Of a stretch of DNA of 64,000 nt, positions 22,641 through 54,018 are shown one piece after another. A program made the translations under genes and the position numbers. The notes under the pieces are model-generated. The model saw only the letters and a program-made list of their open reading frames with translations, ran no database searches and had not been told where the DNA came from. Positions within the stretch are counted from its first letter, which is position 1, and each line of letters begins with the position of its first letter. Source of the DNA: Polytrichum commune (Eukaryota > Streptophyta > Polytrichopsida > Polytrichales > Polytrichaceae); assembly GCA_950295325.1 (NCBI GenBank), contig OX485808.1, positions 13,580,501-13,644,500 on the forward strand. Direction: 5' to 3'.

Positions 22641-22647
22641 ATAGATA

Positions 22648-23885: not shown

Positions 23886-23943
23886 TCCTTATGATCCTTT
23901 TCTTATTCTTGTTATTCTATTTGTTTGTTTAGTTATTTATTTA

Positions 23944-24450
23944 TTATTTTGTTGGTATTGCTTGGTTATTTTCAATACGTCTTTTATGTAGAAGGATTGA
24001 ACTAGCATATTGTATGGCAATGGTGTTTATTTCTTTGAATGTATGGTTTATAGAATTTTGAGGTAGTTTAAATGTTTTTTCAAGTTGTTTCATTGACGGG
24101 GTGTGCGTGGTTCCTCTAGCTCCAGCCGAGATGACTATAAATGGGTCTACTTTCCAGCCTTGTTGGGTGATGTCATTAATTAGAGGTTGATATTTTTGAA
24201 TTTTATTGTCTATTGTATCTTGTGGAAATATGTCATTTATGTATGTGAACTCAATAAATTGTACTGTGAGGTTGTCTGTTGGGTGCGGTGGTGGGGTGGT
24301 GGGGTGGTGGGGTGGGAGTTCTTTGATACATAGGAGGTCGGGTTTAAATCTTGCGTTGCAGTGGCATCTTTGTTGTTCACATGTACATGGTAGGAGCCAT
24401 GTGGGGACTGTATTCTCTTGTGGGTTGTTGTCGAATGTCCTTGCATTCAT
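23944..24450 (-). CDS. LINE ORF2 C-terminus: restriction-like endonuclease
   Basis: The frame contains FKPDLLCIKE, then QFIEFTYINDIFPQ, a lysine-rich segment NKIQKYQPLI, and GWKVDPFIVISAGARGTTH. This is the PD...E...K--KY pattern of the PD-(D/E)XK nuclease found at the C-terminus of R2-, RandI- and Dualen-type elements, where it nicks target DNA to prime reverse transcription. Catalytic candidates are the Asp of KPD, the Glu of IEF and the Lys of KIQKY. A P/H-rich low-complexity insert (PPHHPTTPPPHPT) separates the PD from the IEF part. The reading frame is open from about 24450 to the stop near 23944, making it one of the best preserved parts of the element. Confidence 0.75.
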   Translation of the reverse strand: MNARTFDNNPQENTVPTWLLPCTCEQQRCHCNARFKPDLLCIKELPPHHPTTPPPHPTDNLTVQFIEFTYINDIFPQDTIDNKIQKYQPLINDITQQGWKVDPFIVISAGARGTTHTPSMKQLEKTFKLPQNSINHTFKEINTIAIQYASSILLHKRRIENNQAIPTK

Positions 24451-24501
24451 GAGGATGTAGCATCTTGATTTTTGCGATGATAGGATTAGTTTCCTTAGTT
24501 C

Positions 24502-24810
24502 TCATACTGCTTTGTTATGTCTTTTTATTCTTAGGGCGTGTATATGGTGTTGGTTGCATTTTAACAGTACGTGTAACCATGTATCTGCATCAGAGGAATT
24601 GCATATTGGGCATATGATGGATGGGAATCTTTCTCTGCCAAAAAATAGTTGTTTTCTGGCATTACCCATGTATTGTCCAGTTCGGAATTTTAATATGCAT
24701 GTTTTTTGTGAATTTGTTATTACCGGGTTAGACCAGAAATTGTTAGATAATTCGTTATCAATGTCAGGGTTTATTGTCCATTTGCTAATGTTGGGAAATT
24801 GTTCTGACAT
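24502..24810 (-). CDS. LINE ORF2: zinc-finger segment before the C-terminal nuclease
   Basis: It reads KTCILKFRTGQYMGNARKQL, then CPICNSSDADTWLHVLLKCN followed by HHIHALRIKRHNKAV. The C-x2-C...H-x4-C-type finger followed by a RHN block sits between RNase H and the nuclease, as in elements with restriction-like endonucleases. It would contact target DNA or element RNA. The frame is separated from the next ORF by a stop near 24500. Confidence 0.72.
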   Translation of the reverse strand: MSEQFPNISKWTINPDIDNELSNNFWSNPVITNSQKTCILKFRTGQYMGNARKQLFFGRERFPSIICPICNSSDADTWLHVLLKCNQHHIHALRIKRHNKAV

Positions 24811-25065
24811 GGTTTTTAGGTTGTTAACTTGGTCATGTTTAGTTATGTATGTTTCGAGGCATCTTACAGGGCCTTTATCAGGTCGCTTGTTTGGTCTCGG
24901 CCAGTTGTCTTTTTGGAAGTAGTATGGTGTGGTGTGTGCAAATTCATATGATTTGGCAGCGAATCTGTATCGTTTTTTGGCGCCTTGTTTTGCTAATTGG
25001 TCTACTTGTTCATTCCCATCAATGTTTGTGTGTGCTCTTACCTTATATATCGTAGTAGGTTGCGT

Positions 25066-25443
25066 TCAGTTTTTTAGCATTTCTACCATAGATGTTAATA
25101 TAGTTTTGTCAGCGTGGTTGTTATGTTGGGTAGGGTGTTTTATTTGTGTGTTAAGTACATATAGACAATTGAGGCAGTCTGTGAATATGTGTGCTGGTTC
25201 ATTTGGGTATTTGGTAGTAATTAATCTGAGTGTTTTGTGTATGGCCATTAGCTCGGCCCTAAAGCTGGTTTGTAGACCAGGCAGCCTTTTTGATATGTGT
25301 ATTTTTGTTTTTGTTGGGTTGTAAATTCTGTAGCCAGCTTTTTCTTTCTTCCAATGTCTGTCATTGGTTTGTATGGGTGGGACAAACGAGCCGTCTGTGT
25401 AATAGCTGTATTGTGGTGGGAATTTTAATATCGTGTTTTTCAC
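25066..25443 (-). CDS. LINE ORF2: RNase H domain
   Basis: YSYYTDGSFVPP, TSFRAELMAIHKTLRLI and HIFTDCLNCLYVL give the first Asp, the Glu and the second Asp of the RNase H active site in the right order and spacing. The domain removes RNA from the RNA/DNA hybrid. It starts shortly after ORF 25510-25761 and precedes the zinc finger. The final conserved Asp of the family was not assigned. Confidence 0.85.
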   Translation of the reverse strand: MKNTILKFPPQYSYYTDGSFVPPIQTNDRHWKKEKAGYRIYNPTKTKIHISKRLPGLQTSFRAELMAIHKTLRLITTKYPNEPAHIFTDCLNCLYVLNTQIKHPTQHNNHADKTILTSMVEMLKN

Positions 25444-25509
25444 GAAGTTTGGTAAGGGTGGTGTGTTTGTGATTGTTGGATTGATATGGGGTGGGTAGAG
25501 TAATTTATT

Positions 25510-26992
25510 TCATTTAGCGTTTTTGTTTACTATAGTATTGTGGGGTGTGGGTGAAGCCTTTTGTATGTGATATTGTGTTATTTGTAAATTTTCGATTGCT
25601 GTTTTAATTGTGTTGATTTGGTCGGATGTGCCAATGTTCTGGTTTTGGTGGTGGATACAGAAGATGTATATTGCTAATGGTTCTATACATGATTTGTTTA
25701 TGTTTTGGGGGGTTGTTGGTTCGACATATGCAATGGTGTCTGCATTGAAATGGGCTAACACGTGTGTGTCCGGGAATGGTCCGATATGTGGTGAGTAGTT
25801 TTGGTATCAGTTGATGTCCGGTGTGATTAGTAGTGTGATGGTGTTTGGGTCATTTTTAGCTGCTAGTCGTGTCCAGTGTATTGCTTGTTGGGTTGTTTCT
25901 TCATTATGTGGATGTTCTACAGATATTACTAAAATTTACTTTCCATTTGCAAGAGACAAAATATTTGGATCACTAGGTATTGCTTGTTGGGTTGTTTCTT
26001 CATTATGTGGAAAATAAATTTTAGTAATATGTGTAGAACATGTTATTGGTGAGGAGAAGTATGAGTGTGTGATGTTGAATGTTTTAGTGATGGAGTCGAG
26101 GAGATTTTTTGGGAAAATGTATTGTGATGTTTTTAGTGGGTTTTTTTTCGGTTTTTTAGAGTTATATCTTTGGTAGAGCCATACTACTTCTATTTCAAAT
26201 GAGTGTGGGGGGTACTAGACCGTGTGTGTTGTATTTGTCTTTGTTGTATTGTTGTCATAGCCATGTTAGTCTTGTAGTTGGGATGATAATGAGGTGTCTT
26301 CCAGTGTCTTCATATATATGTGTTAATTCATTTTGTGTTTGTATAGTGTTTTCTACAGTGGCAATGTCTTTTTATGGGTTGTATTCTATTACTGATATTT
26401 GAGTGTATGATATTATCGTAGGTGGTGGTATAAATCTTGGATCTTTGGTTTGTATAGGGTCTAGGTGTGTATGTATGATATTTTTATAGTGGTTGTGTTG
26501 ATGTTTTGTGTAGTATTCTTTTAGTAATTTGGTATTGTGTTCGATTACTGTGGGTTGGTGTAGTGGGAAGAGTTCGCATTGTGGCATCCATTTGTTATAT
26601 GTGATGTTGTTTTCGAGTGACCATTGGCATAGGTATGTGTTGAATTTTTTGGTTATTTTGTACTTATCTTTGATTTCGTTTGATTTGTGGTTCAGTATAA
26701 TGTGGATGGGGAATTTAAGTGGGTTATTTTTTACGTTGGAGAATGGATTGGGTTGTTGGGGTTGTTGTGGTAGTGGTGGGTGTAAGGGGTTTTCTTGCAT
26801 TCTGGGTGTTAGTTCTCTATTTTCTGATATATATCTTGTTTTGAATGTGCGGGCTTGTGGGTGTTTGTTACATGGATTTGGGCAATTTTGGTTGCACCTT
26901 TGTTGGCAAAAAAATTGTTCCTCTATACGTATGGCCGTTTTTTCAAGTTTTGTTGGTGTTTTATAATATATTTGGAAGTCTTTTGGTGACAT
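25510..26992 (-). CDS. LINE ORF2: unassigned module between reverse transcriptase and RNase H
   Basis: About 480 residues in broken frames. The best preserved parts read EIKDKYKITKKFNTYLCQWS, MPQCELFPLHQPTVIEHNTK, YFPHNEETTQQAIHWTRLAA, ITLLITPDINWYQN and GPFPDTHVLAHFNADTIAYV. I do not recognise the domain. Dualen is reported to carry a cysteine protease in addition to its nucleases, but I could not place a Cys-His pair here. Cysteine pairs (CNQNCPNPCNKH) near 26880 could be a metal site. A stop and an internal rearrangement (25880-26035) interrupt it. Confidence 0.5.
25880..26035. repeat. Inverted and duplicated patch inside the LINE
   Basis: A direct repeat of about 33 bp (ATTGCTTGTTGGGTTG...) stands at about 25878-25912 and 25977-26011. 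Between the copies lies a piece that is inverted relative to its neighbour: TGTTCTACAGATATTACTAA against TTAGTAATATGTGTAGAACA near 26017-26037. Removing about 98 bp restores a simple order. Confidence 0.8.
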
Positions 26993-27351
26993 TAAGATTG
27001 TGCCATTGGAGAGGGAGATGTGTTTTACTTTTTGTATGTTGTGAGTTAGGAGTTTATGAAGTAGTTTTAGGGATAGCTCGGGGTTTAGTTGTGGTAGTTT
27101 GGTTGTGGCTTGTGTTCTCCATTCATATTCTAATTCTGTTGTGTGGAATTGGAAGTTTGCTTCTATACTTTTGAGGTGAGCTCCTCCTTCTTTTTCATTA
27201 GGAATAATGTTTGTGTTGTAGGTGATCTTATACAGTCTTGGTATTTGATTCTATGTATGTCATTTGCCCCACCATGTTTGGCTAGTATATGTTGTGTGAG
27301 CCCTTTGTATATTATTCCTAATCTTCCGGGGTCATTTAATGCGTTTCTGAG

Positions 27352-27576
27352 TTATTCACTAATACATCTTAAGTAGGCATTTTTTAATGAAAATGTTTTT
27401 AGTCCAAATAGGTTATGTGGTAGTTGGGTTATTATATTTGCTGGGCATTTTGGTAGACCACAGATTATTTTTTGGATTCCAATTATTTTTTTGTCTAATT
27501 TTTTTATGGTTGGTAATGAGTATGGGACTACGTAGAAGCTATAAGCTATACCAGCTCTGATGACAGTATCCACCAT
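27352..27576 (-). CDS. LINE ORF2: reverse transcriptase thumb region
   Basis: The frame reads VIRAGIAYSFYVVPYSLPTI, KKIIGIQKIICGLPK and HNLFGLKTFSLKNAYLR, which continues directly from the palm domain and resembles the region after the catalytic core in Jockey/I-type reverse transcriptases. A stop precedes the next open stretch, which reads DPGRLGIIYKGLTQHILAKH near 27280-27340. Confidence 0.72.
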   Translation of the reverse strand: MVDTVIRAGIAYSFYVVPYSLPTIKKLDKKIIGIQKIICGLPKCPANIITQLPHNLFGLKTFSLKNAYLRCISE

Positions 27577-27585
27577 GCTTATTTT

Positions 27586-28288
27586 TTATTTGGTTGTAGC
27601 TGGGCATTTTGTTAGTTCTTTGCATTGGTTTATTATTTTGGTCAAAGTGATATGTGTTTGGAGTTTCCATTTTAGTGAGGGGACCAGTTGTATGCCTAAA
27701 TAAACATAGGGTTCGTTTTGGTGTAAGATAGGTAGTGATTGATTTTTATAGTTGATGTTTTGGGTTTGAAGTTTTGTTTTGAATGATTCAGATTTTGTTT
27801 TTGATTTGTTTGGGCATCCTGTGATGGTACATTTTGGTACTCCTAAGTCCATTCCGGCCCAATCGCAGTATTTATCTAGCTTATTTAGTTGGGTTTGTAT
27901 GGATTGTAGGTTGCTTGTGATAGCTGCCAGATCGTCTGCATATGCTGCCGAGGTGATTGTTAGTTTGGATGTGCCAAATGTGTATCCGTTTTTACCTCTT
28001 TGTAGCCATCTTAGAAGAGGTTCTAAGTTCATCAAGAAGAGGTATGGGCTGAGTGTGTCGCCTTGTATTGTTCCTCTTTGTATTGGTATAGGTTTTGTTT
28101 TTCCGAAGTGTTTGCCTGTAAATATGGTATTGGAGTTTGAGTAGATGTTCCTATTAAAGTCACAGCGTCTTCTGGATATCCTAAGTCTTTGGTTATAGCC
28201 AGTAGTCTTGCATGGTCGAGAGAGCCGAAGGCGTTCTTAAAGTCTATATATAGTAGGTATATATCTTGGTTTGTAAACCTTGCGTCTT
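27586..28288 (-). CDS. LINE ORF2: reverse transcriptase palm with YADD
   Basis: Reading on the minus strand: IYLLYIDFKNAFGSLDHARL (first catalytic Asp, near 28240), RGTIQGDTLSPYLFLMNLEP (near 28050) and ITSAAYADDLAAITSNLQ (YADD at 27931-27942), followed by GVPKCTITG and ILHQNEPYVYLGIQL. These are the standard non-LTR reverse transcriptase blocks. A frameshift lies between the first and second blocks near 28100-28140. Upstream the frame runs into the MITE at 28297-28627 and resumes beyond it. Confidence 0.9.
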
Positions 28289-28296
28289 CTAGTGCT

Positions 28297-28627
28297 CTTG
28301 GGGGGGCAGTGTGTTAAAAAGTTAAGGATATAGGTGCGAACAACCACTATTTTATATAGGAGTATTACTTTCAATATATTTTTTTTCACATGCTATCATT
28401 ATGTAAATTTCTACTTTGGGTTAATAGAAAAATGCCTTGCATTACTTATAATTTCAAATTACCTATTATTCCATACCCTATAGTACTTTAAAGATGTCCA
28501 GTGCCATTTTTGATACCCTATATTACTCTTAAGCCCAATTATAAATTTTTGCTCCCATGTTTTTAAAATACCCTATCATTTGTTCGCACGTATATTGCTA
28601 CTCCAACCAATGACTACCCCGCCCGAG
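28297..28627. mobile_element. hAT-like MITE inserted in LINE reverse transcriptase, 331 bp
   Basis: The ends are inverted repeats of about 47 bp with mismatches: CTTGGGGGGGCAGTG on the left, CTCGGGCGGGGTAGT from the right, both reaching GTGCGAACAA inside. CTAGTGCT stands on both sides (28289-28296, 28628-28635), an 8-bp duplication as in the hAT superfamily. Deleting the element and one duplication rejoins the reverse transcriptase frame (LLIAAL to EDARF). Confidence 0.88.
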
Positions 28628-28635
28628 CTAGTGCT

Positions 28636-29860
28636 GCTATAAGGAGTTGGAGTTGTCTAGACGTGTTTCTTTCTGCTCTGAATCATTCTTGGCTGTCGTA
28701 TAAAATTTGGTGTTTTTCTCCATATGCTGACAGTATGAATGTCAAAGTACTTGTGAAGAATTTGTATATTGTGTTTGCGTGTACGATTGGTCTATGGTTA
28801 GATAGTTTTGATGGATCTTTTTTTATATATAATAATATAGTTAGACTTATTTTCCATGATGTTGGAATTTGTTTTTGTTTATAGCAGTGGAAGAAAAATA
28901 AAAAAAATAGCTTGTGGAAGCTTTCAGGCATATTTTTTAGGATTGTGTTAGGAATTTTGTCTGGGCCGGGTGTTTTGTTGTTGGCTAGGTTTTTAAGGCA
29001 GATATCATATGTTTCTCTGTCAAAGTATTCATGTAGTGGGGTTTGTGGGTTTCCTCTTTTGTCGATAACAAAACCGTCAAGGTCATGCCAAGGGTATTGT
29101 CTTACTCCACAAGTACAGTGTGTTGTGTGTTCTGGTTGGTGGTGGCATGTTGGTACTGTGGGTCTATTACTAAGTGATTATTGTTTATGAATTTCATTGG
29201 CTATGTCTTTAGGGTTTGTGAGTATGTTATTATATTCATCTGTAATGCAGTCAAGTGGAAAGTTTCTTGATTTTTGAAGATTTTTTTATTGATTTTTTTC
29301 GGATTTTTTTCATATAGTTGTCTATATTTGGATATCTCTTTTTTGATACATTCTTGGGTGTACTTTGTGGTGATTTTTCGGGCATGTTTGTTTGCGGTTT
29401 TGGCTATTTGTGCTATTATTTTTATCCATTCATGTTGGATAGGTTCAAAATTGGGGGGGGGGGGGATGGAATAGCGACTTGAGTGTGGTTTTTTAGCTCA
29501 TCTATTATTGGGTGTGTTGGCCAGTTTGGTGAATTTTTTATGAGATATATCGCTTTTCTGATCAGATGGTAGGTGGAGAGATGATTTTTCCATTTTTTTG
29601 GGAGTTTTTTGGTAGGAAGCCTCCTCGTAGTGATGTGCGGCTTGTGAGAGCTGGGAGAGGTGGTGCACTGCATGTGTCTTGTATTTTGTCAGAAATCTTT
29701 TGTATTAAGTAGTCTAGTTTTGTACAAGATGATTGCCATTGTTCTTCTGTTATTTGTTCGTTTTTTAGTGTGTTTGTGAGTTCATTTAGTTGAGGTGCAT
29801 TTTCTTCAAAAAACTGTATTTTAAATGTTTCAATATTTTCTTGTGGGATAGGGTTTAATA
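28636..29860 (-). CDS. LINE ORF2: linker and N-terminal reverse transcriptase blocks
   Basis: From 29100 down it reads NNKTPGPDKIPNTILK (shortly before 28931), PTSWKISLTILLYIKKDPSK, LSNHRPIVHANTIYKFFTS and ERNTSRQLQLLIAAL, the fingers blocks of a non-LTR reverse transcriptase. Upstream (29150-29860) is a less conserved linker with several stops, including EENAPQLNELTNTLKNEQIT near 29780 and a G-run at 29452-29465 that probably shifts the frame. Confidence 0.78.
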
Positions 29861-29861
29861 T

Positions 29862-32188
29862 TCATGTGGGTTTATCTGTTACTGGTGGCATGCAACGGGC
29901 TAGTAGTGTATTTGATGGTATGTGTATTGTTACTGGGGAGTGGTCTGAGTTAAGGCTGTGGGCATTGTTTGTGGTTGATGTATACAGAGCATTGTTAGGT
30001 GTTTTGATGTAGTAGCCATCTATTAAACTGGTTTGGTTATAGTTTTGACCGCCTTGTCTAGAGCATAAGCTATTCGTGGGGACGTATGTGAGCTGTAGGT
30101 TGTCCATAAATGTACGCCATTCTATGTCTTCTGCCTGTGGTGGTGTTGTGATGTATTCATTTTGTCGTCCTATTAGGGCTATGTCTCTGTTAAAATCTCC
30201 GCATATAATGTGTATGTGGTTTGGGTGGTTGGTGGTTTGTTGTGTTATATTTTGTTGTATTATGGGTATAAGTCTTATATATTCTTCGTGTGATGACATG
30301 TAGATGTGTATTATTAACCATGGTTGTAGAGGTTGGTTATTTATTTCTATTATTTGTAAGTATGGTGATATTGCGGTTGGGGTGGGGATTTTAGTGATAT
30401 TACCGGGGTATGCGTAGGTTTTATTTATGAGTGTAAGGAGTCCTCCTCTTGTGGGTGTATATGGCATTCTTTGTTGTATGCATCTTGTTAGTGTGTGTGT
30501 ATTGTTAAATATTAGTTTATATTGTGGGAATAGATTTTGTATGTACTTTGTGGATTTTGTTGCGGTTATTTTGGTTTCTTGTATAGTAATAATTGCCGGG
30601 TTGATTGATGTGTTTGTTATGAGTTTATGGAGGTTTGGTAATGTTGTGTTTAGTGAGGAGGCGTTCCAAGTGATTATGTGTGTATTATGGTTTGTTGTTT
30701 GTATTACTTGGGGGTGTAGTCTGGGTGTGTTGGGTATTGGTGGGGGGTGGGAGTATTCAGGTAGTGGGTCTTTGCATTTTAATGATTCACTAAACAATTC
30801 TTCTGGTAAAAAAGGAAATTTATCTGTCATTAGTTGTATGGTTAGTGGTATGGTACTTTGTTTGATGAAGTCATATAGTTCTTTGTGGATGGTGTTGGGT
30901 GGGTTGATGATGTCTTGATTTGTCTCTAGGAATTGTGTGTATGGATGCATGGTTATGATGTGTCTTTCAGGTGGGTTTGGGAGCGAGGCCATTCGTTCTA
31001 AGACTTTTGTTGTCCAATTTGGTTTTGGGGTTCGTATTAGTATGTGGTTGCATGATTCTATTACTAGACTAATCGTGGTGATAAGTGCATACAATATTCG
31101 TGGGGGTGGGTGGTGTTGGTTTTTATAAATGTATCTTGATAGGTATGGGTAATCTGTAATTGTGTCTTGGTGTTTTGGGTGTGTTAGGTTTATTATTGGA
31201 GAAAATTGTTTTGCGAGGTGTTGGTATTCAGGTTGTAATTTGATTGTGCATTCTATAAAGTATTTTTTGCATCTATTTCTATGTGTGGGTGGGTGTGTTT
31301 GTAGTATATTGGGCATGGGCCCCGGGTTGGATTCAATGTCTCCGTTGAGTAGTATTAGTAAGTGTAAGGAGAATGTTTGGATTATGAGGAGGTTTTTTTG
31401 GTTTTTGTATGTTGTGTGTCGTTGTGTACAACTTGTATTTAATAATTGTTGATCTAAGTTTGTTTTGTGACTTGGGAGGTTAGTGGATTTTTTTTGTGTG
31501 TTTGTTTGGGTGTATATGGTTTTGGATTGAGTTTTATTTCTCATTTTGTTTTTTTGGTTTAGGGCGAGGCCGGTAGGCCGAGCCCGTTTTAGGTGGTTTT
31601 TGTGGGTTATATGTTGTGTTTTGGTGTTTAGGTGTTTTGTCAAATTCTTTGTGAAGAGGGGGGTGATGTTGATGTGTTTTGTTTTGGGGGTGGGGTATGG
31701 TGTTTTTCTTATTGTTTTGTTTATTGGTTTTGTGTGTGTGTTTGGAGTTGTCCGAGGGTGATTTTTGGTTATGTTTATCTTTTTCTTGTGTTTGTTTGTT
31801 TTGTTTTTTGTTATTTGTTTGATGTGGTCAAAGGTATTAAGAGATGTTTTATTTGTTTTTATATGGTTTGGGTGTTTTATGTTCCTTATACGTGTTTGTT
31901 TGTTGGTGTGCTTTGTTTTGTGTTGGTACTTTTTACTTTTCTGTTTTGTTGTGGTTGCTTTGCTATGTGTGAGGTCGGTAAACCGAACATTTTTTAGGTG
32001 GTGTTGATTAGTTTTTTGTGTTTGGTGTTTTGGTTTGTTTTTGTTTAGGTGTTTTTGAGTACTTCTTGGAGGGGGTGTGATGGTGTTAGGATTTGTGTGT
32101 TTGTTTATGTTGTTTATTAATATAGTGTAGATTATGTTAGGTGGGTTAGGGTGTTGTTTTGTTCTTAGGATTTCGTTATTTGTGTGTG
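29862..32188 (-). CDS. LINE ORF2: leader, 2A motif and AP-type endonuclease
   Basis: The longest open frame of the window, 792 codons counted from an ATG at 32240. Its first 17 or so codons come from the inserted Harbinger end, so the genuine LINE part starts at 32188. Residues up to about 290 are K/N/T/H-rich low complexity. Residues 292-308 are the 2A-type sequence. From about 520 comes the endonuclease: ITWNASSL (525-526 W-N), ITIQETKI (Glu 555), CGDFNRDI (681-684), SLIDGYYI and SDHSPV (765-770). These are the expected catalytic residues of an exonuclease-endonuclease-phosphatase fold that nicks target DNA. The frame ends in a stop before the linker to reverse transcriptase. Confidence 0.88.
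31317..31367 (-). other. 2A-type ribosome-skipping sequence
   Basis: The peptide LHLLILLNGDIESNPGP fits the D-x-E-x-N-P-G-P consensus with the hydrophobic stretch that usually precedes it. Known 2A sequences make the ribosome skip the Gly-Pro bond, giving two proteins from one frame. Here the break would separate the low-complexity leader from the endonuclease-reverse transcriptase part, which would begin PMPNILQ. Confidence 0.9.
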
Positions 32189-32369
32189 TAATGGAGTTAT
32201 CCGTAAAGTAAGCTGGTGTTTTGACAGATTTTGAGTGCACTATTCACACAAACCCATGGAAACGCAAAGTAAGGCTCTTGAATTCCGGGGCATAATACAC
32301 AAGACCAGGGTTTAGGGTCAAAACTGGTCTGCTTGTTTTTGGATGAGAGAATCGGGGTCCGCCTATTCG

Positions 32370-32760
32370 TGGTTGAGGCCGTCATGCGTGCTTGCTGATT
32401 TTGGGCGTGCTTCACAAAAATCGTGTACAACTGTACATGCACCTGCAGTCCTTTAGTTTCTCCGGATTTAGGCTGCGACAAATTTGGGGTTGTCCCCGCG
32501 GACTTCCCCCCGCCTTGTCAGTGGATATTCTTTGTTGGCAGATCTTGCCGAGTCAGCCCCGCCATCCGCATCACCGCCGGAGCAGTGTTCGGGGAGATTT
32601 CTGGGCATCACCGGTTGAAATTCTAGTATTTACAAGTATTTCTATGGATTCCTCTAAACTGATCGGTAGTTTTCCTGCAGTCTTCAACTTCAACCGGTTA
32701 TTTCTCAAACTCAACCGGTTCATTTGTAACTAAGTGCCGGTTCTCCCCGATCATTGCGTC
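32370..32760 (+). repeat. Harbinger subterminal part shared with 52430-52560
   Basis: Around 32640-32760 the motif AACCGGTTATTTCTCAAACT and a second ACCGGTTCAT recur at 52495-52535 with few changes, together with preceding TTCCTCTAAA. Either a related element copy or a captured repeat. No gene is seen between 32215 and 33060. Confidence 0.6.
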
Positions 32761-33060
32761 GGAGTCAGGCAGTCAGCAGTCAAAGCATCCGATCACCAAG
32801 CCGCGCTGGTCCTATGGAAACTTGGTCATGGAGAGCTGGTCATGGAGGGCTGGTCCTATGCTACAAAATGGATCCTCCAGTTCGAAAGGGCCAGGGAGTG
32901 TGTAGCGGTGTGTTCACTGGTGATGTTGAGTACAGGGCAGCTTCATGAACATTCAGTCATTGGATTGAGTAGAAGGAGTGGGAGGAGTAGTTTAGAGCTT
33001 GTCTAGATCGTGGCACTAGTTGTTATTTGTGTTGTGCAGGTGATTTAGGGATTTGGTACC

Positions 33061-33864
33061 ATGGACGACTCTTCCGATAGTGACATGGAGTTGTTTATGT
33101 CTTTGTCAAGTAGTAGTACCGATGACAATTTCATGGAAGAGATGGAAGAGGAGGCTTCGATGATGTTCCATTGTGCATTGGCGGCATCAAGTTCGTTCAA
33201 TTTGTTCCATGGAAATGAATGGGAAGAAGGGGGGTTTCAATCGGTAAATCCCCACGAAGGTGTGAGAGACGTGCTCGCGACCATGCGTTCTACACCATCG
33301 CTCTTTAAGGATAACACGAATTTCACACTCCAAGAATTTGACGAACTTTGTTTGCTCGTAGTGCCCGTTATTGTTGCCAATGCACGTAGTACTGGTCAAA
33401 ATCGCATTTTGCCCGGTCGGCCCTCAAAATTGTCACCTGAGCAACGCATTCTCAACCTTTTGCTCTACCTCAAGCATGACAACATTACGATTTTGGACAC
33501 ATTCATGTGGAATTGGTCCAAAAGTGCCATCAATGATGATACTATTTTTTTATTATCGTGCATTAACGAGGCGTTGCGTAATGAAATCAAGTGGCCAAGT
33601 GTAGATGAGAGAATAGAGGCGGCGTCACATGTACATGAGTTACCGGGGTGCATTGGCATCATTGATGGCACATTGGTCAAAATCCGACGTCCATGGAGGG
33701 ACGAGAATCATGGTCGTTACTTCAACGGTCGAAAAAAGATGTATTGCATGAACAATTTGGTCGTGGTAGATCATTTTGGTCTTTTCATCTATGTGGAGGC
33801 CGGGTTCCCAGGTGCATACCATGACATCAACGTGTTGCGGCGTTATGATTTGGCAGCTAATTGA
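33061..33864 (+). pseudogene. PIF/Harbinger transposase, truncated (DDE_4 type, HARBI1-like)
   Basis: A 267-codon frame with an acidic Ser-rich N-terminus, the HTH-like segment LSPEQRILNLLLYLKH (124-139), IGIIDGTLVKIRRP with the first catalytic Asp (202), the FNGRKKMYCMNNLVVVDHFG block, and VEAGFPGAYHDINVLRR with the second Asp (255). The frame stops at TGA where the family normally has a Trp, then continues for about a dozen plausible residues (RDFFTHR). The C-terminal part with the catalytic Glu is missing, so the enzyme is inactive. Family members are about 400 residues. The ATG at 33061 follows a plausible leader; a start further downstream is possible. Confidence 0.9.
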
Positions 33865-34925
33865 CGTGATTTTTTTACTCACCGTCCCTCACTATTTTCG
33901 CCATGGGTCACACTAAATAAGAATTTATGTTTACGATACAAGCATGTAATATTTACCAATTGCAATAAATATGTATGCCTTTGGAAGAAAAGGTAGTTAT
34001 AGCAGTTTTATAAGTATGTTTGCATATGGATGTTATAGGAACCGTAGATCTACCCTACATAGTCACATTAGGGTGTCCCTCATTAAATTCTCCATGTTCC
34101 ATAATCTTCATTCACATGTAAATTTTTAGGTTAGAACTAAAAAATTCTCCTTTCTTTCTAAGCGAAGTGAAAAACATTTAAGGGTTGAATTTAACCCTTA
34201 AGCATCCACAATTGTTTTAGCCGGTCAATTCTCGTTAATTCTTCCTGATTTAACTACCAATATACAAAATTTTAAACCATTTTCCTATGACATTTGTCTA
34301 GTTTTGATAACATAAATTAACACTTTAAGATATCCGAGATTGTCTTTTAATTATAAAAATTATAGTAAGTACATACATGTTTAACCCCTAAACGTAACAA
34401 TCCTTTGAACAAAAGTACATTCTAGCCTCAAAAGTAGATATTAGCATGGCTCAAATGGACATGAGGTGTACATGAGAAGATCCTAGAAAGCATAAAATCT
34501 ACCCACCAAATTAGACATACTTGTAGTTGGAGGCCTCTTCAATTTTATCAATAGTCCCCCACCACAAGAGCTTTATTGTAATTTGTAGAGAATTTAATGG
34601 GCTTTCAAAGGTGTATTGGATGAATATCATCCCATGGATGTATTAGAAAGTTACAAGGCTTTGAATTTGTTCGTCACTAAGTTCCTGGACGCTGGAACGT
34701 TTAGGGGTTAAACATGTATGTATCAATTTCATGCTCTTGTTCTATGCTATAAGATCAACATTCATCTCTTGAATTTGAGTTATTTTTCTATATCCTATAA
34801 TCAAATTACGATTGAGGTACATTAATGAGGCCACTAAAGAACCCGTGATGAAGACATGATTGCAATAGTACACACAGGAGATGTAAAGAGAAGTGTCAAG
34901 TGATTTATTTATAAACATAGGGCAT
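33865..34925. other. Harbinger interior without recognised coding sequence
   Basis: AT-rich sequence between the two convergent genes. The missing C-terminal half of the transposase is not found here on either strand, so it has probably been replaced or deleted. Confidence 0.5.
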
Positions 34926-35936
34926 TTACATATGCTCAAAGCTTTGTATGATCTTCTTACTCTCAGCCCTAAACTCCTCTTCTGAATAAACCCCGGCATC
35001 CCTCAACTTTAGAAGATCTCCAAGCATGACACTTTTTGCCTTAGCGGTAAAAAACATGGCTTTCCTTCTCTCCGAGTCTACTTTGGCCATAGAAGATTCA
35101 CTTCTAGCACTCATGAACGATTCACGATGCCCTTTTCCGTGTGCATAGCTTGTGGCCATAGTGACGATGCCCTTTGCTTGCTCAGCCAAAATTTCTGCCT
35201 TCGACAACATTTTCTTTTTTTCTTGAGTGGTTGCACTCACACACCGAGAATTGCTACCCCCGGGTGATTGCTGCCCAGTAGTTGCAACCGGCGCTGCCCG
35301 GCCAGTAGTACCCAAAGCACGCAACCTTTGACTGGCAGCACCTCCTCCTGCCCTTGGTGGGATTTGAGCTTGCTCAGAGGACACAAACTCGGGACTTGTG
35401 GGAGGGCCCGATTCCGATGATCCCAAACTCAGGCTTCTAGCGTCAATCATAGATTGACGTACTCGCAAGACATTTCGCGTTGCGTGCCCATCAATTGCTC
35501 GTATTGCATCGATAACATCTTCCGGTTGAATGGCAGCGCGGTCACTATCCTCTTCATTGGATGTGCCGGTTTTCAGCTCTCGCAACGTGTCCTGTAATCT
35601 TTCCTTCAAGGTGTCTTCTTGGAACAAGTTATCTTCAAAGCGTTGAAGAAAATCAGCATACACAAGCTTCCATACAGCATTGGGAATCAATTGCAATACT
35701 TGTTTTCGTCCATTGCTGTACTTACCAAAATGTTGATGGTATGATGCTACCATAACACTAAGTTGCTCAGACTCTACCACTGACCTATTATGGCGAATTC
35801 TACCATTTACAACAAGAGGTGGATGTGGTTTTTTCCTAGGTGGCTTTGTTGTCCTAACTACCTCGCAATCCTCATCTTCAGGCAATTCTTGAATAGACCC
35901 AAAAACTGCCTCTGGCGGAGGGGCTGGCCTATGCTC
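34926..35936 (-). CDS. Second gene of the Harbinger element, last exon
   Basis: The open frame starts inside an intron; a strong acceptor (TTTTGGTTGCAG before GAGCATAGG) places the exon start at 35936. It encodes EHRPAPPPEAVFGSIQ, QLIPNAVWKLVYADFLQRFE, a Gly/Ser/Ala-rich middle and the C-terminal LGDLLKLRDAGVYSEEEFRA, which resembles the short SHOCT-type helical motif. PIF/Harbinger elements usually carry a Myb/SANT-like partner that brings the transposase to the nucleus and DNA ends. No Myb helix is visible in this exon, so it could be in an upstream exon (36000-37400) that I could not place. About 337 codons, no stops, ending at 34926. Confidence 0.65.
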   Translation of the reverse strand, partial: EHRPAPPPEAVFGSIQELPEDEDCEVVRTTKPPRKKPHPPLVVNGRIRHNRSVVESEQLSVMVASYHQHFGKYSNGRKQVLQLIPNAVWKLVYADFLQRFEDNLFQEDTLKERLQDTLRELKTGTSNEEDSDRAAIQPEDVIDAIRAIDGHATRNVLRVRQSMIDARSLSLGSSESGPPTSPEFVSSEQAQIPPRAGGGAASQRLRALGTTGRAAPVATTGQQSPGGSNSRCVSATTQEKKKMLSKAEILAEQAKGIVTMATSYAHGKGHRESFMSARSESSMAKVDSERRKAMFFTAKAKSVMLGDLLKLRDAGVYSEEEFRAESKKIIQSFEHM

Positions 35937-36334
35937 CTGCAACCAAAACAACAAACCCTAATGTCAATAGCAAACCCGAAACTGCACGAAGAACCTAAAC
36001 ACCCACAACATTGAGCACTGATCACTCTTAAACCCTGATCTACACAAATTCAGCCCATCTACTAATTCATGAAACCCTAACACGACAAAAAATTATAAAA
36101 CCGCCCGTATGGTTGAAAATTCAGCCCTGATCTGCCATTCGATTCCTGCTTGCAAATTCGCACATGGTAGTAGCCAAAAGTTTCGCATGTGTCCTTTCCT
36201 CGGCGATAATCGACCACCATTACCAGCAAAAGCTTTCCTTACCAAACCTACTCCTGAACCTAAACCTAAACCTTCAATGCTCTGTCTATCTGGTAAAGAG
36301 GCAAACTATCCGCAAAGACGACCGGATTGCACAT

Positions 36335-36925
36335 AAGTTATCAGTGTAGTTTCGAAGGACACGAGGTGTTCTAGCAAAACAAGAACTGTGTGTGCAGAGA
36401 GAATCTTCTCGAGAACAGATAGAGGAAATTGCAAAGAAAATCTGAGTTACTATTACTGAGGGAGTGAAACACAAGAACCTTGAAGCTTATCGCCTCTGTT
36501 TAGTATCTAGAATCTGTGTAGATGGTACCATCGATGAAAGAGGAACATCTACTTAACACTATCTCGGACAGAGGTGCTCAAGTGATTTAGCAACCACCAA
36601 GTTCTAACTGATTAATACCCTGGCGATCAACCAAAATCACCTTCTCAGGCTCCGGTATCGCAGATTTGAGGAGGATGATCGAAAGGTCAGGAAGGATGAT
36701 AAGTTAGTTAGTTTCGAAGGACATGAGGTCATCTTCTTGGAACAAAATCCATCTTTGTATATCCAGAGAGAGTATTCTGGAGTACAGATGGAGGAAATTT
36801 GGCACAGAAAATCTGAGTTACTAACTTGTTACCGAGTGAGTGAAATATCATCACAAGAATCCTGATGCTCGTCTTCACCTCTGTCTAGTATCTAGGATCC
36901 ATGTAAATGGTAGCACTGGTGAAAG
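36335..36925. repeat. Diverged tandem duplication in the Harbinger element
   Basis: About 215 bp at 36335-36545 recurs at 36702-36925 (AGTTTCGAAGGACA, AGAAAATCTGAGTTACTA, TCTAGTATCTAG in the same order), period near 367 bp. It lies upstream of the minus-strand gene and may represent duplicated leader or promoter sequence. Confidence 0.75.
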
Positions 36926-37099
36926 TGAAACATGTGTGCTGCTTCTAGATTCTTACACACAAGGATTGACGCAACCTTGAGGGCCTATAACATGTGCCAG
37001 TTTGGCCCTGATCTGCTGATTGAGTAAACCCTACTGGAGCAAAAAAATATCACAAAGAACCTCACACCCGCAACATTCAGCCTTGATCCCCGTGGAAGC

Positions 37100-37620
37100 C
37101 CTGATCTATGAACATTCAACTGACCCTCGTCTAGTGATTCTTACATGTTGAGATTGGTGGTATGGCTGCACCCCCACAGTTGCTTGCACTCGCGATCTGA
37201 GCATGTCGAATCCTGGCGGTGCAGCACTTGAACTTGGGAGCCCTCTCCACAAATCTGCCTCACCATCCCGACCCAAGTGCGGGAACTGACTTCCGGCCTC
37301 TGCGCTCCACCACGCCCCCGTGCCTGCTCCTGCCATAGCTCGATCTGCAATGCGTTTACACGATCTGCCCTCATTTACTTGATCTGCTCCCGCGCCTCCT
37401 CCCCTTTGCCACAAGCCACGCCTTCATCCTTGATCCCCCACAAAGATGAGAGAGAGCCACTTGTTTTTCCTTTGCTTTGCTTTGCATCGCCGCCTTCCCC
37501 CCTTCCCCTGTCCACCATCACCTCACCCCACCATCACCATCGCCATCATGCGCGTCTTGTCTGCACCCCTAACAGAATTAGCGAAACAGGAGAGGGCCCT
37601 CTGACAAAGCAACGCTAAAT
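37100..37620 (-). other. GC-rich segment upstream of the Harbinger second gene, possible first exon
   Basis: GC content rises sharply here compared with the flanks. Minus-strand frames of 102 and 77 codons overlap (37106-37414, 37141-37374), but neither matches a family I know and no donor joined in phase to 35936 could be chosen. It may be the promoter and 5' exon of the second gene. Confidence 0.35.
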
Positions 37621-37804
37621 TCCCGGGGCGCGCTCGCAACACAGGAGCAAATTTTTTTTTTTTTCATCATTTCCGGTCCCTCAAAAGATCTGTGCCTGTG
37701 TTTTTTTATAGCTACAGACACCTGCTCCACTTTTAGGGCCTGTCACACAATTTTCTCAAATCCAGGCCCAAAACCCTCTCTTCAGCTCACTTTACGGATA
37801 ACTC

Positions 37805-39075
37805 TAATGTTAGGAGGGTATTTTTTTGTTATGTTTTTAATTTCTTTTTGCGGTTTTGTTTTAGGTCTTTGTTTGTCTTTTGAGGTTTTTTGTGTTCTTT
37901 TGTCTTTTAGTTTTGGGAGGGTATTAGAAAGTGTTTTTATTTTAGTATGTTTTATATTTTTGTGTGTTTGATTGTTTGGTAGTTTTTGGATTTTGTTTGT
38001 TGTTAGATGTTTGTGGTTATTTATTAATATTTTTTGTTTTGTTTGTGTGGTAACATTAGGGATTGCTTCCTCTTTGTTTTTATTTGGGGTTTTTGTTTGC
38101 TTTAGTTTTGTTGGGCTTGTTTTTGGCATGCCTTTCTTTTTGATTTTTTGTTGTATTATTGTTTTGATTTTATTGTCTTTACTTACTCTAATTAGAAGGG
38201 GTTGTGGGTGTGGTGTGGGGTGGGGTTTAGTTTTCTTATATTGTGCATGTACATTCTTACTTTTGGTTTCTATGAGTTTATTTTTGTATTTTTTGTGGGT
38301 AGGGTAGGTATGTTGGGCTTTCTTTAAGTTCTTGTTTTTTGTTTTTTGTTTTATTTTTTAGGTTTATTTGTCTTTTTGTTTGATGTGTGTTATATGAGGG
38401 TGGAGTGTTTGCCCTTTTGTTTTTAGTTGTGGGTTTTGTTTGTTTAGGTGTGATGGCTACATACTTTCTTAGTATGCATTTTGTATATGTTTTAGTATGG
38501 TTTTTATTATTATTTCTTTGTTTGGTTGTTGTTTTATTTGGGTTTATGTTTTGAGTATTTGGGTTTTTATGTTTGTGTTTGCGTTGTTTTTGGGTGAGGC
38601 CGGTAGGCCGAGCTCGTTTGTGCAATTTTTTCTTAGCTTTCTTTTGGTGTGTGCTTTGGTGTTTTGTAGTTGATATTTTGTTTCTTTCTATGTGTAGGGT
38701 TGGTATTAATATGTTGCATTTGTTTATTGTTATGATTTTGTGAGTTTTTAGGTGCTTTATTTTTGCTTGGTTATTTTTTGTTGTTTGGGTTGGTATGTTT
38801 TGTTTTTGTTGGTTTAGATGTATTAGTTTATGTATTTGTGTGAGAGCATTTATAAATGCTTTGGTTTTATTTTTTATTATTATTCTTTTTCTTTTTCTTT
38901 TTCTTTGTTGTTGTTTTGGTTTTTGTGTTTGTGTGGAAGCATTTAAGAATGCTTTGGTTTTATTTGTTGTTTTATTTGTTTTTTGTTTTGTTTCTCTAGC
39001 ATTTCCAAATGCTATTGGGTTGTTTGTTTTTTTGTTTTTTTTTGTTTTTGCTTTGTGTTTTGTGTGAATACACAT
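37805..39075 (-). CDS. LINE ORF2 N-terminal leader, low complexity
   Basis: Two open stretches (39075-38278 and 38129-37805) of K/N/T/Q-rich sequence precede the Harbinger insertion, and the composition continues on its other side in ORF 29862-32188. The only recognisable block is KRARPTGLTQKQRK near 38600, repeated after the insertion as KRARPTGLALNQKN near 31570. The start at 39075 is 36 bases after the end of ORF1. Function is unknown; a basic, disordered nucleic-acid-binding leader is possible. Confidence 0.6.
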
Positions 39076-39110
39076 TTTTTGTGGGTGGGCTATGTGGTTG
39101 TTTTTCCCTC

Positions 39111-39659
39111 CTAGTTTTCCAATTGTGGTTGTGTTGGGGCTAGAATGGAATCTAGCGCTTTGGTTGTCATATTAACCGCTTGTGATGTTAGTGCTAGTTG
39201 CTTTCTTATTTCGGTCAATTGTAATTTGACATGTGTTGTCAAGTTACGGGTGATTCTTTCTTCACGTACATCGGCTTCCAAAGACACCTCTTTTTTGAAT
39301 TCTCTCATTTCCTTGTGTATTTCTGCTGTGAGCTCTGTTTTGAGCTCAATTATGGGTTGTCCATTCCTTTTGTCCATGGCCGTCCCAACTAGTGCATCAA
39401 GGTCATCATGTGTGATTGTGGTTTTTATCCCTTTGTTTTGTGGTGCATTGCGAGTTGCCTCAAGTGTATCCGCAATTGCCGTGGATATGTCACAAAACCC
39501 AAGTTTTTCTTGCTCCTCCTTGGTTGGTGGTATCGCTCCTTGTAAGCTTTTTAGATGAGGTGCGAAGCTCACATGTTTGCCAAAGATTTCTACGGTCTTG
39601 CCTACCCATTGTCTATAGACAATGGCATTGAACATTGGCCGTGCCTTTGTGGAGATCAC
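39111..39659 (-). CDS. LINE ORF1, C-terminal part with coiled coil
   Basis: The frame opens at YRQWVGKTVEIFGKHVSFAP and continues to a long helical, heptad-like segment (IELKTELTAEIHKEMREFKK through ERITRNLTTHVKLQLTEIRK), ending QPQLEN. A coiled coil in an ORF1 protein would support multimer formation, as in L1 ORF1 proteins. The upstream ORF (to 39613) reads GDLHKGTANVQC across the same DNA in another frame, so a one- or two-base indel near 39613-39659 separates the two parts. Confidence 0.65.
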   Translation of the reverse strand: MISTKARPMFNAIVYRQWVGKTVEIFGKHVSFAPHLKSLQGAIPPTKEEQEKLGFCDISTAIADTLEATRNAPQNKGIKTTITHDDLDALVGTAMDKRNGQPIIELKTELTAEIHKEMREFKKEVSLEADVREERITRNLTTHVKLQLTEIRKQLALTSQAVNMTTKALDSILAPTQPQLEN

Positions 39660-40240
39660 CTACTTGTCCCGGACAGTAGAAGGATGCCACATCAAGCTCT
39701 CCTATGACTGCTTTGATGGAGTCCTTTGTGTCTTCTATATTCTTCATTTTGTGAAGACCATAGAGGCATAGCATGGTGGCATTCTTCTTCTTGATCTCAT
39801 CTTCGGTGAGTCCCTCACCTCGGCTTCTTCTCTCTGCTTTGGCTGCTTGTGGTGTGATTACCTGCATGAGTTCAAGTTTGTATGGGACAAGATATTGAAT
39901 GATTCTATTTGCTTGTGTTGGCGTGGTTGAGATGAGCCATCCCCATGTTTCCTCTTTGACCTTTTGCACACTAGCAATCTCATAGTCATAACCACGCCTA
40001 AAACTCTCAATTAGAACGTCTCTCTGTAGCTCACTGGAAGAGATGAGGTGTAGTTTGGGGTTCTCAATTTTTGTAGATAGCAAAGTGTTTCTAGCTATCG
40101 AATCATAACACTTACAATTTTTTCCCAAAGTTTGAGATTTGTCTAGTGTCAAGATAAAGGGGCGTAGCCCCTTAAGCATGTCAATGCCATCATTTCTAGG
40201 ATTTTTGAGATGAATCTTGATGGTCCCCGTCCAAAACTTT
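39613..40240 (-). CDS. LINE ORF1, middle part
   Basis: About 200 codons reading GIDMLKGLRPFILTLDKSQT, YDYEIASVQKVKEETWGWLI and KKNATMLCLYGLHKMKNIED, followed by DVASFYCPG. The sequence looks like an orderly folded protein, not low complexity, but I do not recognise a named domain. Position directly upstream of ORF2 suggests a nucleocapsid-like RNA-binding ORF1 product. Confidence 0.6.
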
Positions 40241-40246
40241 ACTTTG

Positions 40247-40885
40247 CTATTTTTTTTCCTTTTCTTTGCATGGGATGTAAATGGGTTCCGCTAGTCCTAT
40301 CCCCATTTCGATGTTCATACATACGAGTCTAGTTGTTGCCATAGTGAGTATTTCATTGTGAGTATAGTCAGTTGATGGTCTTTCAAAGTAGACTGCTATG
40401 TGGTAATCAAAGGAAAGCCCAGTGCCTGGGTCTACTTCTGTTTTGATGGGGAGTTGTGTTAAGTTGAAATGTTGCCCACCTTTCCCATCCGGCCTCTCTA
40501 GCGGGTAGAGTAGTTGTTTCACATGAGGAAATGCGATTTTGTAAGTTTGGCTCATCTCCTCTGCTTCTCCCTTGGCTATGCCCATATCGATGAGGTCCTC
40601 TTTCTTCATTGATGGCCTACAATCTTTGGTTTTGACTCCTTCCTCGATAGCGAGCTTCTCCATAGCCACAATCCCAAGCCAAAAGTCCTTCGGTGTCTCC
40701 TTCAATCCGGTTGTGAGTTCCGTGCTTTTCTTCCTCTTGCTTGAGCTGCTTCCTTTCTTTGCTTCTTGTGTCCTCTTGGCGTGAGTGGACTCGATCACCA
40801 TCGTGTCTTCGGTCTCTCCATGTTGGTGTCCGTGGGGCTCTTCATGATGGCATCATGCACCGCTTTGCCTCTGCTTGCCATCTGT
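40247..40885 (-). CDS. LINE ORF1, N-terminal part
   Basis: The 184-codon frame from 40801 contains GLKETPKDFWLGIVAMEKLA, QTYKIAFPHVKQLLYPLERP and CMNIEMGIGLAEPIYIPC. Directly upstream, a second frame reads MASRGKAVHDAIMKSPTDTN from 40885 and ends in a stop at 40795; an indel near 40800 would join them. That ATG follows CCAACAG, a possible 3' splice site, so the leader may be spliced. Confidence 0.55.
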
Positions 40886-41250
40886 TGGACATAATGTTTG
40901 TTAGTATTTTGGTAGTTTTTTAGGTTAGTGCTTTTATCTCCTCCTCCTTTTTGCGCGTGCAATCGGGCTTTGTAGAGGAGATTCAAGCTTTTATTTGCTT
41001 GTTTAGTTTGTCTTATTATTTAGTTTGTGCAAGTTATGATTTTAGTTTTGGTTGTTATTTTGGTTTTAGTGTGGGGTTTTGGACATAATGTTTTGGTTGT
41101 TTTAATGAAACTATTTGATTGTTTTAGTTTTGCCACTCTACTTTCCACTAGCGCGTGTAGTGGGGCTTTGTAGTAGAGGGGTTTGTGACTTATGCGGGTG
41201 TTTACATGTTTGTTGTTTAATGTGAAATGGCGTTTCCTATCTATGGGTAG
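40885..41250 (-). repeat. Tandem duplication in the LINE leader, period about 194 bp
   Basis: TTGGACATAATG begins at 40885 and again at 41079; both are followed by GGTAGTTTT/GGTTGTTTT, GCGCGTG and GGGCTTTGTAG in order. A donor-like AAAG/GTACGT lies just upstream on the minus strand near 41297. Confidence 0.72.
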
Positions 41251-41869
41251 TAGAAAGAAATGCAAAAACATTGAATGCAAAGGGGGAAGTAACGTACCTT
41301 TGTGAGGTGGGTTACCTCTAGTACCTCCTGGTGGTGTTGTGTTTGTTGAGTGTTGTTGATGCCCTGCCGCTACAAGTGTTGTTGGTGCTATGTTGGTATT
41401 TGTCTAGTTTGGTGTGATTTGTGGGGCGAGTGGGCTCTGTCCGCTTGCTTCGAAGGGGTAGAGCAAGTGATTGAGGCCGGTCTTGATTGGTGTGTGATCC
41501 CGGCTATTACCTTCCTCTTGGCCTGCCAAAACACTCAAGCCAAGCCCTCCCAGCTCTTCTCAGTTTAAGGGCTCTGTGAATCCGAGATTCACACACCTTT
41601 CGTTACCCGGTTCTTGATTCCACTTCTCTGCATGGGTTAGGAGTGTAAATGCCTAGCAGGACTTAGTTTGTTAGGTGGTAATGTAGATCCAAATGCTGGA
41701 GCCCAGTTTTTGTTTCCAACACCAAAGATACAATCCCCCCCAACATGCTCAGTTCGGGTTTTGGGTACCTTGCATTTGGAGCTACACTTCTACCTGACAA
41801 CGCAGTCACTGATTCGGCGTTTGGGACACTTCCCGTGAGGTTTATTCGAGCATAATGGAATCACCCATG
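41251..41869. other. LINE leader between monomers and ORF1
   Basis: No ORF or motif is convincing. It connects the GC-rich monomers to the duplicated leader and is assigned to the element by position only. Confidence 0.4.
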
Positions 41870-43330
41870 TTGCTCAAGGTGTGGCCCTTGCAGTTTTGGT
41901 TGAGTTGTCTGGGTCGATGCAGGTTGGTGGTATCCGCAGGTTGGTGGTGGATCGGCTGGGCTCCTGTATGTTCTGGTGTCGTCTCGGTGCAGTCTCCGTC
42001 CATGGGGGCACCGACCTCAGTGTCGGCTTTGGTTTTGGGGGGCGGGCTATGGATGCGGGACTTTGTTGCAGATTACTCTGTGGGGGCGTTTCTTCTGTCT
42101 CGGGGTAGACTCGGCTATCTCTTGGTGAAGATTACGCCCCTTTGTAGTCTGCAGTCCGTGGGTATACGTCCACCGCGCCCCTGTTCTTACCTCGGCCTTT
42201 TTACTGTCTCTTTGGGAGCCATCCCCCAATGTTGTGGGCTTAATCCCCTCAGCAAGGCTCTGTGTTCGGAACCAGCGCCGTTACCTTTACCTGGAAAAGA
42301 CCACTCGGAGGGGAGATGTTTACCAGGAGATCGGCGACAGTTGCCGATCCAGATAGTTGTAGCGGTGTCCCATTGTCCGCCGATGCCTAGGTTGAGACGG
42401 TCTCGTGCTTGGTTTATCCGCCTCAGGCGGTTTTTACCTTTCACGATTTGCCTTCCGCAACCCGTTGATGGCGATCAGGGGTGTTTCGGTGATTGCCGCT
42501 GCACAACGATCTTGTGGATTCAGCATGTGTCCTCCTCCGGCAGGTGCCCCCCGATAATGGCTTCCTGTCCTTTTTGGCAGTCTTCTCCACGGTGTTGTGG
42601 GCAGAATCTTTTTAACAGAGCTCTGCGTCCAAAATCGACGCAGCTCCCTGCACCCAGGAAAAAGATCACACAGGGGGGGGTGCTTACCTTGGGATCAGTG
42701 GCACCTTTACCTTGGTTTAGATCCAAGCTGCTGCAGCAATGTCTCGTTTACCTCCACTACCCCGATTGAGAGGATCTCGAGCTCGGTTGTCCGCTTCAGA
42801 CGGCGGTCACTTCCTCACCCTCGATCTGTCCTCCGTATTCAGTTCTGAGGTGTTACGGTGGTTGCTACTGCTGCTACGGCCTTGAGATCTGCCGTCCGTG
42901 AGTGTCCACCTTCTGTCGTTACCTTTCCTTTTCGGCAGCCGTCCCGCGGTAGTGTGGCAGAGTTTTCTTGGTAGAGCCCTGCGTTCAGAACTAACGCAGC
43001 TACTTTTACCGAATAACAACCCACACAAGAGGGAGGTGCGTACCTTGGGGCTAGTGATGAGCAGACCTCGGTGATTGCCGGTCCGAGCTGTTGTAGCGAT
43101 GTCCTGTCACCCTCCGCAGCACAGATCGAGAGGGTCTCGAACACGGTTAGCCGCCTTGTGCAGTAGCCGCTTCTCCCCGCCCGATCTGTCCTCCGCCCTT
43201 AGTTGATGTCGATGCGAAGTTGCCACGGTTGCGGTGATCTACGATCCTTCGGGTTGGGGACGTTCCACTGCTCCAGGTCGATTTGCAGCGGAATCGCTCC
43301 GATCTGCGAAGTCCTTAGATCTTACACCTA
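41870..43330 (-). promoter_or_regulatory. GC-rich tandem monomers, probable LINE promoter
   Basis: At least three diverged copies of a roughly 360-bp unit. Landmarks GTTGTGGG (42231, 42594) and its relative (42950), GAGCTCTGCGT/GAGCCCTGCGT, and CTTACCTT/GTACCTTGG recur in the same order. GC content is far above the surroundings. Tandem 5' monomers act as promoters in some LINEs such as mouse L1; the position upstream of ORF1 suggests the same here. A plus-strand ORF of 304 codons runs through them because of base composition. Confidence 0.62.
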
Positions 43331-53948: not shown

Positions 53949-54018
53949 TCCAGTTCAATGCTTTAAGGTTGGCATCCACTCTTGATGCCTTAGAGAATGG
54001 AAAAACCCCACTGGTGAG

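Follow-up and report, generated by a model that had tools for sequence, protein, structure and literature searches.

Dualen, also called RandI, is a group of non-long-terminal-repeat (non-LTR) retrotransposons reportedly described by Kojima and Fujiwara in 2005. These long interspersed nuclear elements (LINEs) combine an apurinic/apyrimidinic endonuclease (APE) and a restriction-like endonuclease (RLE) within one element (PMC4640811, PMC3636483) and occur in green algae (PMC4438587, PMC8226300), a table in PMC4438587 naming green algae only, and, beyond these, in cryptophytes (PMC12747079); the position of Dualen has also been taken as a sign that APE-encoding LINEs arose by APE replacing RLE (PMC4640811). 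The locus analyzed here lies in a 64,000-nucleotide stretch of the moss Polytrichum commune (the window; contig OX485808.1, C6:13580501-13644500), the minus strand of which very probably carries a degenerate copy of a Dualen (RandI)-kind LINE of a land-plant lineage, a non-LTR retrotransposon of ~12-13 kb comprising open reading frame 1 (ORF1) and one giant ORF2. The domain order of ORF2 is (i) a 2A-like motif, (ii) APE, (iii) reverse transcriptase (RT), (iv) a PCIF1-like domain, (v) RNase H, (vi) a zinc finger, and (vii) RLE. An earlier note on this DNA had recognized the APE, YADD RT, RNase H, zinc finger, and C-terminal nuclease motifs, all on the minus strand and in the order now established, and had overlooked ORF1, the 2A-like motif, and the PCIF1-like domain.

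Two endonucleases in one open frame

The genome searched comprises 407.8 Mb in 64 contigs, of which C1-C7 account for 406 of 408 Mb, a share that suggests seven chromosomes. A search with P0002 gave at least 41 matches (41 scored of 6,395 first-look candidates), all 76-85% identical and several stop-free, and five of these with long open frames were read as an intact set, with frame lengths counted from stop to stop. ORF2 comprises 2,625 aa in the copies at C1 17.95 Mb, C5 35.13 Mb, and C2 42.78 Mb, 2,924 aa at C4 34.92 Mb, and 2,663 aa at C1 51.77 Mb. In all five, APE is N-terminal and RLE C-terminal to RT within the same protein. Pfam recognizes RNase H in an intact ORF2 (4.5e-13), and the zinc finger of the element is followed by a PD-(D/E)xK fold that resembles R2 in alignment and structure comparison.

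Older copies display the same architecture. Eight 3-kb loci were pulled by a YADD-type DNA pattern and relatives are encoded in five, where RT, the PCIF1-like domain, RNase H, and RLE are collinear on one strand (5/5), together with APE in four, the fifth being without the 5' side. The earlier note had named the C-terminal nuclease belonging to a different, adjacent element as the finding that would overturn its claim of two endonuclease types per element, that is, an ordinary APE-only LINE adjoining an unrelated R2-like remnant. The window RLE does sit in a separate short ORF past a stop, but all domains share one open frame in the intact copies, their order is kept in the older ones, and APE, RT, RNase H, and RLE also occur together in 12 of 82 database proteins; an adjacent-element origin of the RLE, ruled out by the intact frames and by the order in older copies, retains practically no probability.

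The 82 homologs were fetched with the window read-through from RT to RLE, and many are shorter, perhaps fragments. Per-domain profiles locate APE, RT, PCIF1-like domain, RNase H, and RLE in a single protein in the same 12, four of these with partial APE, and most rows of the RLE alignment keep CxxC..H..C, RPD, E..Y, and a later K/Q-H/Y pattern. The RT tree comprises 78 rows (73 of the 82 proteins, the window, and four PDB references; nine proteins with an RT stretch <270 aa or absent were omitted) and groups the window with P0003-P0006 (100/100). This group belongs to a clade of 47 rows (100/99), of which P0047 from the volvocine Pleodorina starrii is also a member; the R2 and L1 references and other rows lie outside, where long branches leave the deeper order unsure. 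A scan of viral contigs with P0003 found no relative.

Nei-Gojobori comparison of ORF2 between the C1 17.95 and C4 34.92 Mb copies, a single pair giving rough values, yields a ratio of nonsynonymous to synonymous substitution (dN/dS) of 0.13 overall, 0.35 for the leader, and low values for each of the six conserved segments, the two nucleases among them: APE 0.07, RT 0.05, YLCQW 0.05, PCIF1-like 0.12, RNase H 0.04, and RLE 0.10. A somewhat unlikely alternative holds that one nuclease is vestigial and retained as a DNA-binding or structural part, the other making all cuts. It would fit the RLE and PCIF1-like ratios of this one pair, which exceed those of RT and RNase H, and the fact that LINEs with a single nuclease function elsewhere; the APE and RLE motif residues, apparently intact by eye in the youngest copies, and ratios of both nucleases far under that of the leader speak against it.

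The element has recently spread in the genome. The C1 17.95, C5 35.13, and C2 42.78 Mb copies are 99.0-99.1% identical to one another and have a common 747-aa ORF1 frame, whereas the C4 34.92 vs C1 51.77 Mb pair reaches 99.67% identity over 13.3 kb, its upstream ORF measuring 1,833 or 1,400 aa. Exact target-site duplications of 12 and 11 bp bound two of the five, giving element lengths of 12.0 and 13.3 kb, and the 3' ends of copies consist of (CTAT)n, short repeats rather than poly(A). With such intact, near-identical copies in a land plant, the question of why an element keeps both nucleases becomes testable in moss. A more distant lineage, with ~37-48% protein identity to the window, was seen at C1 0.757 and 3.80 Mb (L015-L018); over 7.2 kb these two copies share 95% identity, and the 0.757 Mb copy displays two 2A-like motifs.

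Upstream of ORF2, ORF1 homologs are encoded in four of the five older copies (E 4e-18 to 2e-88) and in all intact copies; no Pfam domain was found in ORF1, that of the window included. The 1,833-aa upstream ORF at C4 34.92 Mb (L037 3479-8977) is likewise without a Pfam domain, and its last third matches ORF1. The motif D[VI]ExNPGP is present in three of five intact copies, it or its Q-for-E form in three of five older copies, and likewise in two of 82 homologs, P0010 and P0007 (DIQPNPGP, with Q for E, in the latter), most homologs being without this end.

A PCIF1-like domain and its possible role

The PCIF1-like domain is a constant part of the 47-row clade and is more surprising than the two-nuclease result: it is present in 27 of the 27 clade members long enough to show it. 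The PCIF1 fold match extends over 229 residues at 18% sequence identity. Several homologs score above the Pfam threshold for PF12237, among them P0044 (5.1e-16), as does the moss ORF2 (2.9e-10). When the P0041 segment was compared with PDB sequences, the entries listed at E<=1 were all PCIF1 chains, with FASPLN and NPEY/NPPF as the aligned sites. That the match reflects a generic Rossmann-type likeness of a domain unrelated to PCIF1, as an identity of just 18% might invite, is very improbable given these PF12237 scores and the exclusively PCIF1 outcome of the PDB search. PF12237 matches above the curated threshold number at least 150 in the genome (of 697 candidates, 150 were scored), LINE or other context alike, and LINEs with such a domain could mislead the annotation of PCIF1 genes.

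Because the catalytic NPPF motif is gone, the domain is likely an RNA binder rather than a methylating enzyme. An active enzyme, methylating adenine on the element cap or on target DNA with a changed motif IV, appears unlikely: the extent of the fold match, the low dN/dS, and a canonical SPPF in homolog P0023 would agree with activity, and the non-canonical motif IV in the 22 genome copies read and in 29 of 30 homologs speaks against it.

A cycle can be proposed from general LINE biology. The element RNA would be translated, with a 2A skip, predicted from the motif, releasing the enzymatic portion from its A+C-rich leader, and ORF1 would bind the element RNA. One nuclease would nick the target, RT would prime cDNA at the nick (target-primed reverse transcription), RNase H would strip the RNA template, and the other nuclease would cut the second strand, yielding the 11-12-bp duplications; the likeliest division would assign the first cut to APE and the second to RLE. 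The PCIF1-like domain would most likely bind RNA, perhaps at the capped 5' end. More broadly, and tentatively, the whole Dualen clade may carry a pseudo-methyltransferase, derived from PCIF1/CAPAM, that would recognize the element's own RNA by its capped 5' end and, via RNase H and the second nuclease, couple this end to the completion of insertion. Such a LINE, equipped with two cutters and a cap reader, would be of ancient origin in green plants, with recent activity in a moss.

Several points weigh against this interpretation, in its identification of the element and in its mechanism. The RT tree includes no Dualen/RandI reference, none of its rows being so labelled, and an APE tree (37 rows) leaves deep branches unresolved and does not unite the APEs of the clade in one group. 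The outside-clade control for the PCIF1-like domain is weak: the domain is in none of 28 such proteins, among which only P0055 (804 aa) extends >=764 aa past RT. A canonical NPPF motif ([DNS]PP[FYW]) is found in one of 30 aligned homologs (P0023) and is absent from the other 29, and none of the 22 genome copies read has a canonical motif IV (HPHN, HPNN, HPHT, HLHN, or FPTD instead, the window copy being damaged there), so any function of the domain is one that we infer from fold and selection. The catalytic residues of APE and RLE were judged by eye only, the nuclease order and division of labour are drawn by analogy, and the 2A motif is altered to DIKPNPGP in two of five intact copies, the C4 34.92 / C1 51.77 Mb pair. 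No target-site duplications were found at three of the five intact copies, that at C1 17.95 Mb being shorter at its 5' side and that at C4 having been checked at the alignment limit inside the upstream ORF.

The window copy and its surroundings

The earlier note had read one minus-strand element at 23930..43330; domains and strand hold, although the frame of this copy is interrupted by stops and frameshifts. The interval itself requires revision, since it contains a nested PIF/Harbinger transposon and a miniature inverted-repeat transposable element (MITE), neither being LINE sequence, and the 3' end lies at ~23440, where the terminal 158 bp and the (CTAT)n tail are common to the C1 6.09 Mb copy. 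Upstream, ORF1 extends to ~40852 and the plus-strand G+T richness fades near 41500; examined copies give no DNA match for 41500-43330 and equally none for 40501-41500, which is neutral on the 5' end. Plus-strand G+T is 0.69-0.73 over 23946-32190 (MITE excluded) and 0.69 over 37806-40900, as against 0.47-0.50 in the outer flanks. The G+T-neutral block at 32191-37805 is PIF/Harbinger, and the LINE therefore resumes upstream of it with an A+C-rich spacer followed by ORF1.

Homolog-built profiles match the window read-through at 7.7e-61 (APE), 1.4e-121 (RT), 3.5e-36 (RNase H), and 2e-54 (RLE), with none of 200 shuffled read-throughs reported at E<=10; these profiles are not independent of the window, because the homologs behind them were fetched with its read-through. 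Pfam, run on separate window ORFs, recognizes Exo_endo_phos, RVT_1, and a fragment of RNase_H (Table 1).

Table 1. Features of the LINE copy and its insertions, in window coordinates (own HMM, hidden Markov model built from homologs; UTR, untranslated region)
Feature	Coordinates	Strand	Remarks
3' UTR and (CTAT)n tail	23434..23945	-	hairpin GCCGGCCCC..GGGACCGG, then CTATCTAT; 82% match to C1 6.09 Mb 3' end (terminal 158 bp)
Zinc finger and restriction-like endonuclease (PD-(D/E)xK, R2-type), C-terminal	23971..24615	-	
RNase H	24991..25404	-	Pfam RNase_H 3.5e-4, below curated cut-off; own HMM 4.4e-24 and 5e-7
PCIF1/CAPAM-like methyltransferase-fold domain, damaged	25816..26208	-	
Conserved segment YLCQW...YNKW	26375..26716	-	own HMM 4.9e-40; no Pfam match
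RT, C-terminal part (YADD)	27691..28295	-	Pfam RVT_1 5.3e-12; own HMM 8.5e-57
MITE splitting RT, 332 bp, foreign to LINE	28297..28628	.	8-bp duplication AGCACTAG at both sides
RT, N-terminal part (NKTPGPDKIPN)	28686..28982	-	own HMM 3.3e-33
AP endonuclease (WNASS, QETK, GDFN, SDHSPV)	29931..30674	-	Pfam Exo_endo_phos 3.1e-7; own HMM 5.9e-61
A+C-rich N-terminal part of ORF2	30675..32190	-	ORF 29862-32243; plus-strand G+T 0.73 over 28629-32190
Putative 2A-like ribosome-skipping motif DIESNPGP	31317..31340	-	fits D[V/I]ExNPGP
Nested PIF/Harbinger transposon, foreign to LINE	32191..37805	.	Pfam DDE_Tnp_4 4.6e-11; plus-strand G+T 0.50; inverted ends GAGTTATCCGTAAAGT, TAATG at each side
PIF/Harbinger transposase ORF	33049..33864	+	
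PIF/Harbinger second ORF	34926..35957	-	
A+C-rich LINE spacer	37806..39110	-	G+T 0.81-0.83 over 37900-39099; GGCCTACCGGCC repeat in common with 31567
ORF1, frameshifted	39111..40852	-	homologs upstream of ORF2 in other genome copies

A chromodomain label considered for 26375-26716 is a by-eye resemblance, unproven and with no Pfam support. The self-complementary GGCCTACCGGCC repeat stands at 31567 and 38597, flanking the Harbinger insertion, and the leaders of intact copies encode SAYRPRH-like repeats. A DNA transposon at 22646-23435, which we take to be pogo/mariner-like, is inserted in the (CTAT)n tail, with TA flanks and 25-bp perfect inverted ends (CAGTCTAACC...). In the 3' UTR, 23680-23760 resembles tRNA A and B boxes by eye, perhaps a short interspersed nuclear element; ARAGORN on 22000-24500 and Rfam (gathering) on the window gave no matches, this stretch included. 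Upstream of ORF1, 42564-42835 and 42922-43195 form a direct repeat pair (68%), and at 53986-54780 (+) lies a fragment of plant L1 type, in which a zinc-binding, RT-associated region can be made out by eye.

The RDR gene that the earlier note had reported is present, its exons lying on the minus strand at 10.2-20.2 kb (10200-20200). Its product, presumably of RDR3/4/5 type, is 48% identical to that of the moss Ceratodon purpureus, 46% to that of the lycophyte Diphasiastrum, and 38% to that of the fern Adiantum, followed by seed plants; a small tree leaves the window, moss, lycophyte, and fern sequences unresolved. By this gene alone, the host is securely a land plant and likely a moss.

Comparison with known systems

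The moss element resembles Dualen/RandI in joining APE and RLE in one element and in its RNase H; the volvocine P0047 falls in the same RT clade. Dualen carries a cysteine protease. Pfam detects none in the moss element, and precomputed Pfam annotation places a Josephin protease (PF02099) in clade proteins P0033 and P0047 and a PHD finger (PF00628) in P0015 and P0024. Compared to R2 and other RLE-only LINEs, the moss element additionally has APE and RNase H. Plant L1 LINEs have in common with it APE, RT, and RNase H, whereas its RT stands apart from the human L1 reference and, to our knowledge, L1 elements have neither RLE nor a PCIF1-like domain. Compared to PCIF1/CAPAM, the cap-specific adenosine methyltransferase, the moss domain sits in a LINE and the catalytic NPPF has been lost in nearly all sequences examined.

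The D(V/I)ExNPGP motif, located upstream of APE and only predicted to cause skipping, recalls the 2A-bearing LINEs of Trypanosoma and sea urchin (PMC4981915), which a title cited there describes as APE-type elements. Among CC-licensed (Creative Commons) literature, no report of a PCIF1 domain inside a LINE, Dualen included, was found, nor any contrary to the proposal in the earlier note of a lineage not described in streptophytes. The (CTAT)n tail is a further likeness to RandI, a table in PMC3747384 giving (ATT)n or (CTATTT)n for eight of eight green-algal families, whereas the land-plant host, ORF1, the 2A-like motif, and the PCIF1-like domain, an apparent new component of LINE anatomy, distinguish the moss element from Dualen/RandI.

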